In this document: piece by piece, positions 32,878 through 39,905 of the stretch
How the letters are laid out: every line of letters starts with the position of its first letter
Position numbering within the stretch: position 1 is the stretch's first letter
Origin: a candidate division FCPU426 bacterium
GTDB taxonomy: Bacteria > Oederibacteriota > Muellerivitia > Muellerivitales > DAHXKG01
NCBI GenBank assembly: GCA_027366525.1
Contig: DAHXKG010000005.1
Location: 1-64,000 of the forward strand
DNA length: 64,000 nt
Direction: 5' to 3'
Made by a program: the position numbers and the translations under genes
The notes under the pieces: model-generated
What the model saw: the letters and a program-made list of their open reading frames with translations, nothing else
Databases searched by the model: none
What the model was told of the DNA's origin: nothing

Positions 32878-32925
32878 TGGATAAATATGTATATAGAAAT
32901 GAATAACTATAGGCATATTTATCCA
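32860..32925 (+). promoter_or_regulatory. Promoter and 12-bp inverted-repeat operator of the AbiE operon
   Basis: TTGACA (32860-32865) with a -10-like TAAATA (32882-32887, spacer 16). A perfect 12-base inverted repeat, TGGATAAATATG (32878-32889) and CATATTTATCCA (32914-32925), covers the -10, and its right arm reaches the A of the abiEi ATG. AbiEi antitoxins of studied systems repress their own promoter by binding inverted repeats, so this is the probable autoregulatory site. No Shine-Dalgarno precedes the start. Confidence 0.65.
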
Positions 32926-33545
32926 TGAATACGGCGACCAAAGCAAAAACCTATGAAAGGGCCATCAAGGTCTTCAAGACCCATGGAGGGCTCCTGTCCT
33001 CGACAGAGGCCATTCAGGCGGGCATCCATCCAAGGGACCTTTACGCCATGAGGGATGCCAAACTGCTCGAACAGATGAGCCGGGGGCTTTACCGCCTTTC
33101 GGATATGCCTTCCCTCGAAAACCCAGACCTTGTGACGGTAGCCAAGCGAGTGCCAAAGGGGGTCCTTTGCCTGATCTCGGCTCTTGCCCTTCATGAGCTG
33201 ACCACCCAAATACCCCATGAGGTTTATGTGGCGCTCAAGATGGGGGCGAGAATCCACCGGCTGGAAAACCTGCCTCTTCGGATTTTTCATTTTTCCGGTA
33301 AGGCTTTTACGGAAGGGATTGAGGAACGAAAGGTGGATGGGGTGGCCTTCCGGGTTTATTCCAAGGAAAAAACCCTAGCAGATTGTTTCAAATATCGGAA
33401 TGTCGTTGGGATGGATACGGCGCTGGAGGCCCTCCGTAATTATTGGAAGAGCCGGGGGAAGAATATGGATAAGCTTACCCATTTTTCGAAAATCTGCCGT
33501 GTCGAAAACGTCATGCGGCCTTATTTGGAGACCATTCAAGAATGA
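32925..33545 (+). CDS. abiEi: AbiEi-like type IV antitoxin / repressor
   Basis: 206 residues. N-terminal winged helix (FKTHGGLLSSTEAIQAGIHP, then DLYAMRDAKLLEQMSRGLYRL) and an AbiEi C-terminal domain (GVLCLISALALHELT near residue 78; VYSKEKTLADCFKYRN near residue 145). In the family, the N-terminus binds DNA and the C-terminus neutralises the nucleotidyltransferase toxin without stable complex formation. It overlaps the toxin gene by 4 bases (ATGA). Codon use is GC-rich, marking it as imported. Confidence 0.9.
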   Translation: MNTATKAKTYERAIKVFKTHGGLLSSTEAIQAGIHPRDLYAMRDAKLLEQMSRGLYRLSDMPSLENPDLVTVAKRVPKGVLCLISALALHELTTQIPHEVYVALKMGARIHRLENLPLRIFHFSGKAFTEGIEERKVDGVAFRVYSKEKTLADCFKYRNVVGMDTALEALRNYWKSRGKNMDKLTHFSKICRVENVMRPYLETIQE

Positions 33546-34468
33546 AAAAACCCATCGTCAATATGGCGGCCTCGGTCCACCAGCGGCTCCTGAACATGGC
33601 CCAAAAGACAAAGCGGCCTTTCAATGAGCTACTTCAGTATTACGCCATGGAGAGATTTCTCTATCGCCTTTCCAAGTCCAAATATTCGAATAGCTTCATC
33701 CTGAAAGGGGCCCTTCTGTTCAAAGCCTGGGAAGTAGCCGATTCCAGGGCCACCATAGACATCGATCTTCTCGGAAGGTTGAAGAATGAAACGAAACATA
33801 TTGCCCAAGTCGTAAAGGAGATTTGTTCCCGTGATGATGATCATGATGATGGTCTTCGTTTTGACCCTGCCACGGTAAAGGCTTCAAGAATCGTGGAGGG
33901 CGCGGATTATCATGGCGTCAGGGTGAAGTTTCGCGGCTACTTGGGCAATGCTCAAATACCCATGCAGATCGACATAGGATTTGGGGACCTCATAATGGCT
34001 GGACCTATTCCGTTGGTATATCCCACACTCTTGGATCTTCCGGCGCCCCATCTCAAAGGCTACAGGCCGGAAAACACGATTGCCGAAAAATTCGAGACCA
34101 TGTGCAAGAGGGGAACGGCCAATAGCCGAATGAAGGACTTTTTCGATATTTGGCTTTTGGCTAGAAGGTTTAACTTTGATGGGACCAAGCTGTCCAGGGC
34201 CATTAAGGAAACCTTTGAGAACCGCCACATGGAAATCCCAATGGAGCCCCTAGCTTTGAGCACAGATTTTTCGCGGGACAAGACTAAAGCAACACAATGG
34301 AAAGCTTTCGTGAAAAAGAGCCGGTTACCCCATGCGCCTTCCAGCTTTACCCTGATAGTAAAGGTGCTAAGAAGTTTTTTGGGACCGATTGCAAAGACCC
34401 TGAACGTGAAGAAGAACTTCACTGGAAGGTGGAAAGCATCAGGCCCCTGGAAGGGTTTAAAGAAATGA
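33542..34468 (+). CDS. abiEii: AbiEii/AbiGii nucleotidyltransferase toxin
   Basis: 308 residues of the DNA-polymerase-beta-like nucleotidyltransferase fold. Family motifs: FILKGALLFKAW (motif I), ATIDIDLLGR (metal-binding Asp pair, near residue 77), QIDIGFGD, and AEKFETMCKRGTANSRMKDF with DIWLLAR (motif IV, near residue 190). It ends with the usual GPW. Studied relatives transfer nucleotides to tRNA acceptor ends or act as GTP-dependent growth inhibitors, giving abortive infection. All motifs look intact. Translationally coupled to abiEi. Confidence 0.9.
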   Translation: MKKPIVNMAASVHQRLLNMAQKTKRPFNELLQYYAMERFLYRLSKSKYSNSFILKGALLFKAWEVADSRATIDIDLLGRLKNETKHIAQVVKEICSRDDDHDDGLRFDPATVKASRIVEGADYHGVRVKFRGYLGNAQIPMQIDIGFGDLIMAGPIPLVYPTLLDLPAPHLKGYRPENTIAEKFETMCKRGTANSRMKDFFDIWLLARRFNFDGTKLSRAIKETFENRHMEIPMEPLALSTDFSRDKTKATQWKAFVKKSRLPHAPSSFTLIVKVLRSFLGPIAKTLNVKKNFTGRWKASGPWKGLKK

Positions 34469-34752: not shown

Positions 34753-34792
34753 TTGAATTTATAGGAAATTAGTAATACGCTAATCAGCGGAT
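34753..34792 (+). promoter_or_regulatory. Promoter and 18-bp operator of the XRE gene (copy 1)
   Basis: TTGAAT (34753-34758), a 17-base spacer and a weak -10 TACGCT (34776-34781). The -10 lies inside ATACGCTAATCAGCGGAT (34775-34792), a dyad with CGCT/AGCG arms. The same 18 bases with the same spacing from a -35 occur at 35903-35920. Confidence 0.7.
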
Positions 34793-34821
34793 TTATAGAA
34801 TCCTAGAAATAGGTGATAAAA

Positions 34822-35133
34822 ATGACATTTGGAGAATTTGTAGCCACTAAGCGGAAGGAAAGGAAACTTACCCAGAAGGATTTGGCGGCGAAGATTTTGA
34901 AAGAAGACGGCAATGCCATAACGGCCCAATATCTCAATGATATTGAGCACGATAGGCGAAATCCCCCGGCTGGCCAGTTGCTTGAACAGTTTGCGAAAAT
35001 GTTAGATATCCCGGTGGATGCTTTGTACGTCTTGGCTGGCAAAATGCCAGATAATCTTTTGAAAAGTAAAGATGTTGATGTTCAAAAACTTGAAGTCGCC
35101 TTTCAAGCGTTTAGAAAAAAACTTAAGGAATAA
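34822..35133 (+). CDS. XRE-family transcriptional repressor
   Basis: 103 residues. A cro/C1-type helix-turn-helix at residues 3-70 (FVATKRKERKLTQKDLAAKI, then ITAQYLNDIEHDRRNPP) and a short C-terminal helical part. The ATG at 34822 has AGGTGA 5 bases upstream; the in-frame GTG at 34813 is part of that site. It is followed 2 bases later by an ImmA/IrrE protease, the arrangement of phage/ICE repressor-antirepressor pairs. It probably binds the operators at 34775 and 35903. Confidence 0.9.
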   Translation: MTFGEFVATKRKERKLTQKDLAAKILKEDGNAITAQYLNDIEHDRRNPPAGQLLEQFAKMLDIPVDALYVLAGKMPDNLLKSKDVDVQKLEVAFQAFRKKLKE

Positions 35134-35135
35134 TT

Positions 35136-35855
35136 TTGAAATACGTTCGCGACATTTCGGGAATCCTAAGAACCAGACCTCACTTGCAACCTGTCGAAAT
35201 CGACAGGAAGTGCGAGCAAATCATCCGCGAATTTATGGAGCTTGAATGCGGTGGGTTTGTTGTGCCAATTCCGACCAGTGCTTTGACGCGGTTGATTGAA
35301 CGTGATGCAGATGACCTGGATTTGTACGCTGATCTTTCAAAGGACGGCCAGGGCATTGATGGTGTAACCGATTTTGTGAAAGACAAGCGGCCACGGGTTA
35401 GGATTTCAAAGGAGCTTTCGGAGGCAAAAAACGAACATCGCTTACGTACGACCTTGACCCACGAATATGGGCATGTGAAATTTCATGCTCCGTTGGTAGC
35501 CGCCGAGGCTCTCGATCAAGACCTATTTGGTCCTGGTGCCACGAAAACCCCGCATCACTGTAACAGGGAGCGTATTTATTCAAAAAACACTTCAAATTGG
35601 ATGGAATGGCAAGCTGGTTATGTTTGCGGGTCACTATTGATGCCGTTGACGATTTTCAAGGAGTTCGTTTTGGAATTTTTTAAACGTGAAAATACCCACG
35701 CCCCTCTGAAAATTTGTACCCCGCTGGCAGAAAAACTTTTGGCAGAAATCTCTCAAAAGTTTCATGTTTCCAGGGACGCTGCCAAAGTGCGGCTTTTCTA
35801 TGTTGGAAATGGGTCTTATCTGACGGATGGGGATCCCCACCCAACCATGCTTTAA
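35136..35855 (+). CDS. ImmA/IrrE-family metallopeptidase
   Basis: 239 residues. Zinc motif HEYGH (near residue 108) in TTLTHEYGHVKFH, and the downstream ligand region WMEWQAGYVCGSLLMP, as in ImmA/IrrE proteins (E-x-QA-x-x-F/V-A-x-x-LLMP). In ICEBs1 and Deinococcus, such proteases cleave the partner repressor on DNA damage or other signals. The start is a TTG at 35136 with AAGGA 6 bases upstream, 2 bases after the XRE stop. Cytoplasmic; predicted to inactivate the XRE repressor and release the downstream operon. Confidence 0.88.
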   Translation: MKYVRDISGILRTRPHLQPVEIDRKCEQIIREFMELECGGFVVPIPTSALTRLIERDADDLDLYADLSKDGQGIDGVTDFVKDKRPRVRISKELSEAKNEHRLRTTLTHEYGHVKFHAPLVAAEALDQDLFGPGATKTPHHCNRERIYSKNTSNWMEWQAGYVCGSLLMPLTIFKEFVLEFFKRENTHAPLKICTPLAEKLLAEISQKFHVSRDAAKVRLFYVGNGSYLTDGDPHPTML

Positions 35856-35880
35856 TCTCCAAAATAATCGGTTCAAAACA

Positions 35881-35920
35881 TTGACAAGAACAACCTTTCG
35901 TGATACGCTAATCAGCGGAT
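35881..35920 (+). promoter_or_regulatory. Promoter and 18-bp operator of the TIR operon (copy 2)
   Basis: TTGACA (35881-35886), a 17-base spacer and TACGCT (35904-35909) inside ATACGCTAATCAGCGGAT (35903-35920). The 18-mer is identical to the one before the XRE gene, with the same -35 distance, so both promoters should answer to one regulator. Confidence 0.75.
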
Positions 35921-35973
35921 ACTCAAATAAGCTTATTTTTGTATAAAAAAATCAGCAGTGAAAGGAAAAGACG

Positions 35974-36261
35974 ATGGCAGAGCGAGTGGAAGTAAGTTGT
36001 ATCGACAAGCGGGACCGTCAGAATCCGCATGAACGGATTCAGGCCATTGGCGGTGTGCATGGTGGCCAGCGATGGAAGATGTCGGAAGAGAATGCAATCC
36101 AGAGCATTAAGGCTGGAAAATACGATTTTTACGTTACTCGAGGCGGTCGGACCGTGGACGTGATTATCGACACCCACAGCGGGCGTGAATATCTGAAAAC
36201 GGAAAATGACGGGTATAGCCCGGACAACCTTCTCAGTTTAGACGCATGCAGGGTAAATTAA
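35974..36261 (+). CDS. DUF3892 protein
   Basis: 95 residues, full length for DUF3892: CIDKRDRQNPHERIQAIGG, then RWKMSEENAIQSIKAG, YDFYVTRGGRTVDVII, REYLKT and DNLLSLDAC. The biochemical function of the family is unknown. Start ATG with AAAGGA upstream. It is the first gene of the operon controlled by the copy-2 operator and is followed by a zinc-ribbon/glycine-zipper gene and two TIR genes, which suggests a part in the defence system. Confidence 0.88.
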   Translation: MAERVEVSCIDKRDRQNPHERIQAIGGVHGGQRWKMSEENAIQSIKAGKYDFYVTRGGRTVDVIIDTHSGREYLKTENDGYSPDNLLSLDACRVN

Positions 36262-36321: not shown

Positions 36322-36558
36322 ATGCTCGTTTACTGTACTAATTGCAAAAAAGAACATGCTGACCCAGGTATGAACCTCCCGTGGTCATCCTGTCGGTTCT
36401 GCGGCGGAAACCTGGTTCGATCTGCAGGAGTTGGTCGTCTTGCCGGTGCTGGTGCAGGGGCGGCGCTTGGATCCCTTGGGGGACCTTTCGGCGCCGTTGT
36501 TGGTGGCGTCCTGGGATTTTTCCTTGGAAATACTGCAGAAAAAAACATCAAGAGGTGA
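36322..36558 (+). CDS. Zinc-ribbon / glycine-zipper membrane protein
   Basis: 78 residues. C-x-x-C (CTNC, residues 4-7) and C-x-x-C (CRFC, near residue 24) make a zinc ribbon. Residues 33-70 are a glycine-zipper membrane hairpin, GAGAGAALGSLGGPFGAVVG followed by GVLGFFLGN. That module is clearly related to the C-terminus of the next gene's TIR protein. The ATG at 36322 is preferred over 36310 because GAGGTG lies 4 bases upstream. It is 4 bases from the TIR gene. Glycine zippers form oligomeric membrane assemblies in other proteins; a membrane role is inferred. Confidence 0.75.
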   Translation: MLVYCTNCKKEHADPGMNLPWSSCRFCGGNLVRSAGVGRLAGAGAGAALGSLGGPFGAVVGGVLGFFLGNTAEKNIKR

Positions 36559-36562
36559 TGTA

Positions 36563-37153
36563 ATGGTACATAAGGTATTTTTTAGTTTTCATTATGAGCG
36601 GGATAACTGGCGTGCCGGACAGGTGCGTAATAGTGGAATCACCAAGTCCGACGTCGAATCCGCCGGGTTCATCGATGCAGTTGAGTGGGAGTCCATTCAA
36701 CGCGAAGGTGACAAAGCTATCGAATCGTGGATCGAGAAGCAGATGGAAGGGACGGCGGTTACGGTAGTCCTGATTGGGGCTCAAACGGCCAATCGGCGCT
36801 GGGTCTTGCACGAGATTAAGCGGAGTGCAGAAAAAGGCAATGGATTGCTTGGCATCTATATCCACAACGTCAAGGACATGGAGGGTAAAAAGGACTCCCA
36901 AGGGAAAAACCCATTTACAGAATGCGGTATCGAGGATGTTCCCATCTATGACTGGGCTGAAGACAACGGATACGAAAATTTCGGGAAATGGGTTGAAGCG
37001 GCATATCAGAAAGCTCTTCCGAAGGCAGGAAAAGCCGTTGGTGCTGGTGCAGGTGCCGCTATCGGTGCACCCTTTGGGCTCCTCGGAGTCGTTATAGGGG
37101 CGGCGGTTGGGTACCTTTTTGGAAATGAAGTCGATAAAGAAAGTAAGGGATAA
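36563..37153 (+). CDS. ThsB-like TIR protein (DUF1863) with C-terminal glycine zipper
   Basis: 196 residues. Residues 1-150 are a MTH538-type TIR domain as in Thoeris ThsB: VFFSFHYERDNWRAGQVRNS, EWES-x-x-x-x-GD, VTVVLIGAQTANRRWV, HEIKRS with the presumed catalytic Glu at 84, and GNGLLGIYIHNVKD. Residues 155-190 are a glycine zipper (GAGAGAAIGAPFGLLGVVIG), not found in ordinary ThsB, likely to tether it to a membrane. ThsB proteins make NAD-derived signals on phage infection. The true start is the ATG at 36563 with AGAGGTGA upstream; the frame upstream is a shadow of the previous gene. Confidence 0.88.
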   Translation: MVHKVFFSFHYERDNWRAGQVRNSGITKSDVESAGFIDAVEWESIQREGDKAIESWIEKQMEGTAVTVVLIGAQTANRRWVLHEIKRSAEKGNGLLGIYIHNVKDMEGKKDSQGKNPFTECGIEDVPIYDWAEDNGYENFGKWVEAAYQKALPKAGKAVGAGAGAAIGAPFGLLGVVIGAAVGYLFGNEVDKESKG

Positions 37154-37157
37154 TTAA

Positions 37158-37583
37158 ATGGGAAAAAAATTTAAACACCTAGAGTTTATCCAGGCAATTA
37201 TCAACCGAATGGCCGGCAACTCTTTCTTAATCAAAGGTTGGTCGGTAACGGTTCTTTCCCTTGTTACTGCATTCGTGCTAAATGATGGCGACCCTCGGTT
37301 GGTTCCTGTGGCTTACTTTCTTGTTCTGATGTTCTGGTTCCTTGATGCCTACTACCTAAAAATCGAAAAGAACTATCGGGAACTATACAAGGCTGTCTGC
37401 AAAACCGAGGAGAAGGCTATCGATTTCAACCTCGCTTCCAATGGCTACTCCAAAAAAGCGGGTAGCTATGGAGCCGTTCTATTCTCCACCACCCTGCTTT
37501 TGTTCTACGGGGCGTTGATTGTTTTTGTCGTCGTTGTTCATCTTATGACGGGAGTGTGTCATGGCACGTCGTGTATTTTTTAG
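37158..37583 (+). CDS. Three-helix membrane protein of the TIR operon
   Basis: 141 residues. Hydrophobic segments near residues 24-42, 46-67 and 105-131, with a cytoplasmic-type charged loop between (KIEKNYRELYKAVCKTEEKA). The start FIQAIINRMAGNSFLIKGWS resembles small membrane proteins I recall next to TIR-like genes, but no function is established. It lies between two TIR genes, overlapping the second by 23 bases, so it is a good candidate for the membrane effector of the system. Confidence 0.75.
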   Translation: MGKKFKHLEFIQAIINRMAGNSFLIKGWSVTVLSLVTAFVLNDGDPRLVPVAYFLVLMFWFLDAYYLKIEKNYRELYKAVCKTEEKAIDFNLASNGYSKKAGSYGAVLFSTTLLLFYGALIVFVVVVHLMTGVCHGTSCIF

Positions 37584-38016
37584 TTTTGATTATGATCGGG
37601 ACATTTGGCGGATTGGACAAATTCGAAATAGTGGTTTGACTAAACCGGACATTGAAACTGCTGGATTTGTTGATTCTGCATCCTGGGAATCCGTCAAACG
37701 TCAGACCGATGAAGCAATCGCACGATGGATAAATAATCAGCTTAATGGAACTTCAGTTACTGTAATTCTTATTGAGGTGGAAACGGTTCAAAACAGGTGG
37801 GTAAAGTATGAAATAGACCAAAGTATTTTGAGGGGGAACGGATTGCTTGGAATTTATATCCACAATGTTAAGAGCGCTTTAACTGGGCAAACCGATTATC
37901 AAGGTAAAAATCCTTTCGATGCTTTTGTGCTCACTTCAACCAATTTACCCCTCTCTCGCTATTACTACACGTATGACTGGGTTATGAATGACGGATACAA
38001 CAATTTTCCTGCTTGA
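37561..38016 (+). CDS. Second ThsB-like TIR protein, possibly truncated by a nonsense mutation
   Basis: 151 residues as read. VFFSFDYDRDIWRIGQIRNS, SWESVK, VTVILIEVETVQNRWV, YEIDQS (Glu 84) and GNGLLGIYIHNVKS match ThsB. It keeps the longer ThsB tail YDWVMNDGYNNF, closer to classical ThsB than the first TIR. The frame stops at TGA (38014-38016) exactly where the first TIR has Trp (GYENFGKW). Beyond it, ten codons (GELAAQRAGK) lead to TAA at 38047-38049. A single G-to-A change from TGG would explain this. GGGAG precedes the ATG. Lower GC than TIR 1. Confidence 0.85.
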   Translation: MARRVFFSFDYDRDIWRIGQIRNSGLTKPDIETAGFVDSASWESVKRQTDEAIARWINNQLNGTSVTVILIEVETVQNRWVKYEIDQSILRGNGLLGIYIHNVKSALTGQTDYQGKNPFDAFVLTSTNLPLSRYYYTYDWVMNDGYNNFPA

Positions 38017-38129: not shown

Positions 38130-38310
38130 GCCACCAGTGGATCATTGAAATCTTTCAAATTTCACAACGCCGGGTCTGTCAAGTGATGGGTTTATCGAGA
38201 AATATATATCGGTATGCGCCTCCGGGTCGCTCGGAGGAACCGTCTTTGATAGCTCGAATGATCGAACCGGCATGTCTGTATGGACGCTATGCCCCATATG
38301 TCAGGATAGA
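38130..38310 (+). pseudogene. Remnant of an IS3-family transposase OrfB (N-terminus)
   Basis: The frame reads HQWIIEIFQISQRRVCQVMG, then LSRNIYRYAP and LYGRYAPYVRI, the N-terminal helix-turn-helix region of IS2/IS407-like OrfB proteins. No catalytic domain follows: the sequence is cut by the left end of another IS3 element at 38311. There is no start and the DDE core is lost. Confidence 0.7.
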
Positions 38311-38360
38311 TGTCGCTTTTAGAGATATACTTCTCACGGGGTCAAAAAGGAAAAGGACCG

Positions 38361-38857
38361 ATGGAACAGTTCAAATATTCAGAAGAATTCAAAAAGACAG
38401 CCGTTCAAAAGTTGTTGAATCGAGGTTCTCGTTTAGCGGAAGAAATCAGCAAGGAGCCAGGGGTTGCTTTGAGTACCTTGCACCGGTGGAAGACGGAGCT
38501 AGGCTACAAGGGAGAAATTAAAAGTACGAGTCCAAGGCCACAAGATAGAAATCCTGAAGAAATGCTGAGATTATTGATTGAATTTGAAAAAACACCTGAA
38601 GAAAAGAGGGGTTAGTTTTTGCGCATGAAAGGTTTACACACGCAAGAGATCGAGAACTGGCGAAACCAAATCAAAATGGCTTTAGGTCCAGGTGGTAAGA
38701 GGGTCGTGGATCGCAATGAACAAGTTAAAAATCGACTCCGGATTAAGGAACTGGAGAGGGATTTCGTGCGCAAGGACAAAGCTTTGGCCGAGGCCACCGC
38801 GCTTTTGATTCTTTAAAAAAAGCCGAATTGATTTGGGGAATCGAGGAGAACGAGTGA
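38361..38857 (+). pseudogene. IS3-family OrfA, broken
   Basis: MEQFKYSEEFKKTAVQKLLN opens a helix-turn-helix OrfA. A TAG at about 38612 interrupts EEKRG/FLRMKGLHTQEIENW, and a frame change in an A-run near 38815 separates ALLIL from KKAELIWGIEENE, the usual end. Two lesions make it inactive. Confidence 0.8.
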
Positions 38858-39905
38858 GCGCTGCCGATAGGACTCAGACCCAAGAGTTGATCGACGAAGC
38901 GGTTCGGGGGGGCCCATCAAGACAAAGCGGCTCACTAACTGGGCGTGTCGGTGAGAACTTTACAACGTTGGAAATTTCAACTGGAAAATGGGCGAAAAGG
39001 CCCCCAAACACCACCCTCCAATGCGCTGAGCTTACAAGAGCGCGCTCATGTGTTGTCAGTGGCCAATAGCGCGGAATTTGCGGATCTGTCGCCGTGGCAA
39101 ATCGTGCCGCGTCTTGCCGATCGTGGAGAATATCTGGCAAGTGAATCAAGCTTTTATCGGATTCTGAAAGCTGCCAATTGTTTGGCTCCTAGGTCAAGAT
39201 CCAAGCCCAAGCAGCGTCAAAAACCAGAGGCGCTGATAGCTGTCAGACCCAATCAGGTTTGGAGCTGGGATATTACCTATTTGAAGACTCGAATCCAGGG
39301 AATGTTCTTTTATCTTTACTTGCCCATGGATATTTTTTCTCGAAAGATTGTTTATTGGGAAGTGCATGAAAGTGAAAGCGCTGAACTGGCCAGTGGAATG
39401 ATGGCCAAGGCCTGTGAAGTGCAGACGATCGAACCTGGTCAAATCAAACTCCATTCGGATAATGGAGGCCCGATGAAGGGGGCGACAATGCTGGCAACGC
39501 TTCAGCGTTTAGGGGTTGCACCGTCCTTTAGCCGCCCGAGTGTGTCAAACGACAATCCTTATTTAGAGTCGTTTTTCAAAACACTGAAGTATTGCCCGAG
39601 TTATCCGACAAATGGTTGTTTTGATAGTATCGAAGTGACACGGGAGTGGGTTGAAAAATTCGTTTATTGGTATAACCACGTACATTTACACAGTGGCATT
39701 AACTGGGTGACACCCGATTCCCGTCACGAGAACCGTGATCAAGCCATCTTAAAAAAACCGTGAAAAGGTTTACAAGACGGCCCAGAGCCAAAAGCCCAAC
39801 CGATGGTCTCGATCAACGCGCGATTGGTCACGTCTAGGTGCCGTGGAATTAAATCCGGGTGGGAGTTCACAAAAAATTCAAAAAGAAGTTACTGAAGCTG
39901 CTTGA
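38854..39905 (+). pseudogene. IS3-family OrfB (DDE transposase), broken
   Basis: The start GTG (38854) overlaps the orfA stop as GTGA. VSAADRTQTQELIDEAVRGG loses frame in a run of G near 38908, then a TAA follows KAAH. From 38945 the frame is open: WSWDITYLKT (first Asp), LHSDNGG (second Asp), NPYLESFFKTLKY (Glu), so the DDE triad survives. A further frameshift in an A-run near 39755 separates the last 50 residues (REKVYKTAQSQKPNRWSRST to KEVTEAA). At least three lesions; inactive. Confidence 0.85.

Follow-up and report, generated by a model that had tools for sequence, protein, structure and literature searches.

Does a single regulator hold both its own gene pair and a neighbouring immune-type operon in check? 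The question is raised by an 18-mer, ATACGCTAATCAGCGGAT, that lies over two promoters in the 64,000-nt stretch of a candidate division FCPU426 genome that we analysed (contig DAHXKG010000005.1; we call this stretch the window, and use its coordinates throughout). One copy (34775-34792) lies upstream of genes for an XRE-family candidate repressor and an ImmA/IrrE (M78) metallopeptidase, and the other (35903-35920) lies upstream of an operon encoding TIR-domain proteins. We consider it very likely that the locus is a CapH/CapP-like damage switch, in which an autoregulated XRE protein and an M78 protease control themselves and the adjacent TIR/PDC-M50 operon.

The two copies are exact, as the original prediction had it, and the shared promoter geometry it described also holds: at both promoters, the spacer between the -35 box (TTGAAT at 34753-34758 for the XRE-protease promoter; TTGACA at 35881-35886 for the TIR-operon promoter) and the -10 element TACGCT is exactly 17 bp, with the -10 formed by operator bases 2-7 (34776-34781 and 35904-35909). 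Both promoters are predicted from sequence, and the poor match of TACGCT to a -10 element is compatible with a regulated promoter. The original prediction was right about the pair of 18-mers but overlooked their dyad symmetry, AT-N-CGCT-N4-AGCG-N-AT (AT-A-CGCT-AATC-AGCG-G-AT in the window copies), and a second operator next to one of them. At the XRE promoter, the dyad comprises two 8-bp ATNNGCNN units; at the TIR-operon promoter, the identical dyad, which we call O1, is followed at an offset of +16 by a second, overlapping dyad, O2 (ATACTCAAATAAGCTTAT, 35919-35936), which supplies array units 3 and 4. O2, the weaker dyad, is present in the TIR promoter only (PWM score of 16.8; the corresponding position of the XRE promoter scores -28.7), such that the unit count is four at the TIR promoter and two at the XRE promoter. 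All of these elements, and the XRE, protease and TIR-operon genes described below, are on the forward (+) strand.

The operator is confined to these two places. We found no third copy of the 18-mer within the window when allowing up to 3 mismatches, and a shuffle control gave a mean of 0.03 matches, with two matches in 0/100 shuffles; the window operators score 29-31 bits by PWM. A genome-wide search, which the original prediction had proposed with an eye to many unrelated copies, returned the same two copies only and so did not refute it: the 2,022,204-bp genome (97.5% complete) has no further copy with up to 2 mismatches, and no match to the dyad pattern ATNCGCTNNNNAGCGNAT elsewhere with up to 1 mismatch. 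We reject a broad genomic regulon, since these searches found no other operator site.

The genes between and beyond the operators have the layout expected of a repressor-protease pair followed by an immune-type operon. The XRE-family candidate repressor (34822-35133; 103 aa; Pfam HTH_3, 7.6e-8), which is CapH/ImmR/DdrO-like, ends 2 bp before the start of the gene for the CapP-like M78 metallopeptidase (35136-35855; 239 aa; Pfam PF06114, 2.1e-6; PADLOC capP, 3.4e-8). The downstream operon begins with a DUF3892 protein (35974-36261; Pfam, 1.5e-16) and continues with a small protein that has cysteine pairs and a Gly-zipper membrane segment (36322-36558; Pfam Gly-zipper_Omp, 3.1e-5, just under the cut-off), a ThsB-type TIR protein with a C-terminal Gly-zipper segment (36563-37153; PADLOC ThsB, 6.9e-62; PDC-M50B, 3.5e-61), a PDC-M50A membrane protein of a candidate phage-defence family (37158-37583; PADLOC, 1.2e-44) and a second ThsB-type TIR protein (37561-38016; PDC-M50B, 3e-56). 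Directly upstream of the locus is an AbiEi/AbiEii type IV toxin-antitoxin pair (32925-34468; PADLOC, 2.4e-73 and 9.3e-100), making this a small defence island, and just 3' of the TIR operon there are fragmented IS3-like transposase reading frames (38310-39770), read from the ORFs alone. Only the source genome, among 45 genomes of the phylum, has a relative of the protease, suggesting that the unit was probably acquired horizontally.

The decisive evidence comes from comparing relatives of the locus. The first relatives that we found, on three plasmids and one viral contig at ~40% identity, keep the gene pair, with one operator upstream of the XRE gene and another upstream of a next gene set quite unlike that of the window. 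Scanning a protease alignment against GTDB genomes and IMG/VR yielded about 100 loci, many of them in MAGs, from at least ten nominal phyla as named in the record titles (Pseudomonadota, Chloroflexota, Acidobacteriota, Nitrospirota, Verrucomicrobiota, Planctomycetota, Gemmatimonadota, Bdellovibrionota, Dormibacterota and Patescibacteria), with one further locus labelled Actinomycetes. The XRE gene is immediately 5' of the protease gene in nearly all of them, and in most, a motif search recovered two operators, one ahead of the XRE gene and one 12-91 bp past the protease stop codon. For a stricter test, we used 66 loci whose proteases are <85% identical, and scored each promoter with a PWM built solely from the opposite promoter type, with the locus itself left out of the training set (leave-one-out). 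Fifty-seven of 61 XRE promoters scored above the 99% shuffle level (51 above 99.9%), as did 60 of 66 cargo promoters, i.e. those of the downstream gene sets (58 above 99.9%). Matches of at least 15 bits numbered 256 in ~22 kb of regulatory gaps, versus 10 in 703 kb elsewhere in the loci. Dozens of non-redundant relatives thus share the operator at both of these positions, and it is rare in the rest of their loci, which strongly supports the proposal, already made in the original prediction, that a single regulator governs the two promoters. The spacing of the -35 to the operator's -10 peaks at 17 bp for XRE promoters and 16 bp for cargo promoters; since -35 elements are enriched at these distances from a -10 that is inside the operator, a bound repressor would cover the -10.

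The relatives also clarify how the operator is built. Among their promoters, the best offsets for a second copy are +8 and +16, indicating an array of 8-bp ATNNGCNN units. The cargo array is longer than the XRE array in 26 of 46 paired loci, shorter in 12 and equal in 8 (sign test p=0.03), a modest statistical trend that may mean that the cargo is repressed more tightly than the regulators. In one locus (L046), overlapping operators lie 8 bp apart (1795 and 1803), and in the Rhodobacterales/IMG/VR loci (L034-L109) the XRE-promoter operator is often a variant, ATCCGCGAACAAGCGGAT.

The XRE protein has features of a DNA-binding repressor. Its AlphaFold model (pLDDT 93) has a five-helix HTH and a long C-terminal helix, and in a fold comparison it matches many XRE proteins, SinR, DdrO, ImmR and the N-terminal domain of CapH among them. 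The family shows hardly any variation in the recognition region, (I)SPQYLNDIEHDRR, as expected given that the operator itself is conserved. All 55 loci whose XRE has no more than 2 recognition-helix changes have an operator scoring >12 bits at one or both promoters, and a locus with 8 such changes (L081) has no operator at either promoter. Across all loci, we found no correlation between the number of helix changes and the operator score (Spearman -0.05), a covariation test that is uninformative because the recognition helix hardly varies. The PADLOC capH profile is matched by 49 of 58 family XREs at an E-value of 0.001; the window XRE does not reach that level, and matches PADLOC HTH_VI (1.3e-10). 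The HTH_VI profile is matched by all 58 family members, with a best E-value better than that for capH.

The proteolytic step is consistent with what is expected of the M78 family. The zinc-protease site is complete, with HEYGH (residues 109-113) and a distal glutamate, E157; H109, E110, H113 and E157 are invariant in 63 sequences. The best structural match to the protease model (pLDDT 90) is Thauera CapP (7t5t; VIA Z 14.6 over 177 residues), followed by PprI/IrrE and an M. tuberculosis regulator with Z of about 10-11, with unrelated structures at <5, and 65 of 66 family members match the PADLOC capP profile. At the sequence level, the relationship is distant: a search of PDB sequences with a 5-sequence protease profile gave no matches, and the best match to a 66-sequence profile was CapP with a very weak E-value of 0.21. 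This weak similarity to the solved CapP indicates that the protease family is a separate branch. We found no phages that carry the protease.

The cargo in the window differs from that of the relatives. The two TIR proteins have ThsB_TIR matches of 2.7e-26 and 6.5e-22, and as PDC-M50B proteins they adjoin the PDC-M50A membrane protein. We set aside an assignment to Thoeris, because the operon has no ThsA-type effector and its membrane gene is PDC-M50A; a search of the five cargo genes for ThsA-type effector domains, such as SIR2-SLOG, found none. The products of 36322-36558 and 36563-37153 both end in Gly-zipper membrane segments and are encoded beside PDC-M50A, giving the operon three membrane-directed parts. 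Among about 100 loci, TIR/PDC-M50 cargo under the operator occurs in the window only. Elsewhere in the phylum, PDC-M50A has one weak, broken match only, and no viral contigs encoding the same TIR protein were found.

In the relatives, the same cassette precedes operons of several other kinds: CBASS cargo (patatin, DncV-like cyclase, E1/E2 and JAB) in L022, L064, L066, L067, L074 and L084; Pycsar cargo in L078 (PycC, 1.8e-148); ubiquitin-like cargo operons with multiubiquitin, E2, ThiF and DUF6527 genes; and prophage-like operons, all of which points to a portable repressor-protease switch. On the protease tree, cargo switches at least 19 times (counting seven labels, including 'other'), suggesting that cargo is exchanged while the switch and operator stay together. 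The prophage-like cargo of the Rhodobacterales/IMG/VR loci is itself conserved, with 395-aa and 285-aa proteins of unknown function, a small HTH protein and AAA_24. In two Dehalococcoidia/Dehalococcoidales loci (L046 and L050), the cassette lies before genes that by eye are ABC-transporter-like, a possible non-defence target. DUF3892 or DUF2188 small proteins are among the first cargo genes in 24 of 106 loci, irrespective of cargo type (L005, L009, L029, L043, L052, L062 and others); hhalign detected no homology between DUF3892 and DUF2188 (probability 0.5).

We considered other explanations for the paired operators. The motif not only overlaps but contains the -10 at each promoter, which is what would be seen if it were an activator site or a promoter-class element, such as the signature of an alternative sigma factor or an extended -10, with the XRE protein acting as an activator. 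However, the dyad, and the array of multiple 8-bp units that extends past the start site, suit occupancy by dimers rather than a sigma element; a promoter-class element is also at odds with the motif travelling with the XRE gene across phyla, and the characterised relatives that are partnered with a protease (DdrO, ImmR and CapH) are repressors. We regard this explanation as improbable. The two 18-mers could instead be relics of a duplication or a mobile element with no regulatory role, and the IS3-like transposase remnants at 38310-39770 are the kind of neighbour that such an origin would predict, but the flanks of the two 18-mers are unrelated. We give a relic almost no credence, and reject duplication outright, given that dozens of non-redundant loci have kept the site in these same two places.

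The remaining explanations accept the switch and question its target. The XRE and protease might be a self-contained stress or toxin-antitoxin-like pair, with the TIR operon having merely gained a copy of the site without being the main target: ZnMP/HTH-Xre pairs have been annotated as toxin-antitoxin systems (PMC10538038), and PDC-M50 operons occur elsewhere without the pair. The pair was absent from all five of the plasmid PDC-M50 loci sampled, indicating that the PDC-M50 operon is generally independent of it. Nonetheless, almost all relatives have retained a second operator ahead of the downstream genes, which are often immune-type genes, and in the window it is the TIR promoter that has the longer array, so we think it doubtful that the pair acts for itself alone. 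A reading that we find unlikely, yet worth keeping in mind, is that the switch is real and its cargo is not antiphage, being a general damage-response or element-maintenance operon. The Rhodobacterales cassette fronts prophage-like genes, and Bub operons are without shown antiphage function according to the authors of the CapK/CapS work (PMC13373217); set against this, ThsB-type TIR proteins and PDC-M50A are listed as candidate phage defence, and in the window they are near an AbiE pair.

The CapH/CapP-like damage switch that we favour has parallels in several known systems. In CBASS-associated CapH and CapP, as in the window, the HTH gene is directly followed by the M78 protease gene and then an immune operon; no structure matches the window protease better than CapP, the capP and capH profiles match most family members, and relatives of the window pair precede CBASS and ubiquitin-like operons. 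The window pair differs in being distant in sequence (E-value of 0.21 for CapP; no capH match at 0.001 for the XRE) and in its TIR/PDC-M50 cargo. ImmR and ImmA of ICEBs1 and TnSmu1 are likewise a repressor and an M78 anti-repressor, and their control of mobile elements (PMC10233336) is paralleled by the Rhodobacterales relatives, which front prophage-like operons, but what the window pair would control is a TIR operon rather than conjugation genes. DdrO and IrrE/PprI of Deinococcus share the protease fold (Z of about 10), the XRE fold and derepression by proteolysis after damage; by contrast, they govern a dispersed DNA-repair regulon rather than two local operators, and IrrE/PprI is longer than the 239-aa window protease. 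CapK and CapS provide an example of one repressor acting at its own promoter and that of an immune operon, with the operator over the -10, and also occur upstream of Type IV Thoeris (PMC13373217), although these kinase and STAS-wHTH proteins are unrelated to XRE and M78 proteins, and their half-site is TTAA. Lastly, both components of PDC-M50, a PADLOC candidate system, are present in the window, i.e. the M50A membrane protein and the M50B TIR proteins; the window operon, however, has two TIR proteins, includes the DUF3892 and Gly-zipper genes, and lies under the XRE-protease switch.

We infer that the XRE protein binds the operators and is cleaved in response to an inducing signal, and that the cargo defends against phage. 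Without induction, an XRE dimer on the ATNCGCTN4AGCGNAT dyad would block RNA polymerase at both promoters, with two dimers, probably cooperating, on the four-unit TIR array and one dyad occupied at the XRE promoter. This difference between the arrays would keep toxic cargo tightly off, with the regulators made at a low level. CapP is an ssDNA-activated protease that cleaves the repressor CapH and controls adjacent immune operons (PMC13373217), PprI is activated by ssDNA (PMC10904395), and mobile elements are under the control of ImmR/ImmA (PMC10233336). On the model of CapP and PprI, damage, with ssDNA as the most likely signal, would activate the protease, which would then cut the XRE protein, probably near its C-terminal helix, freeing both promoters.

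This mode of control is known in kind. What is new, as far as can be tested, is the TIR/PDC-M50 cargo, together with a conserved 8-bp array that is common to defence and prophage-like operons, although the operator may be partly known from CapH; we found no literature that combines ImmA, XRE and Thoeris. We tentatively suggest, as an idea more speculative than the switch itself, that the gene pair and the ATNNGCNN array, whose first units provide the -10, are a transferable cassette with its own recognition code, such that promoters gaining the array come under damage control, and that DUF3892/DUF2188 proteins may be a third component. If true, this would explain how one switch comes to precede TIR/PDC-M50, CBASS, Pycsar, ubiquitin-like and prophage operons across many phyla.

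Our findings bear on how potentially lethal immune operons stay off until they are needed, and extend the known cargo of CapH/CapP-like switches to a TIR/PDC-M50 operon. Since the operator is recognisable in sequence and has been conserved in at least ten nominal phyla, operons under this switch can be found by scanning for the array, rather than by guessing from gene neighbourhood. The presence of the same array at both kinds of operon suggests that defence operons and prophage-like elements have one damage-sensing module in common.
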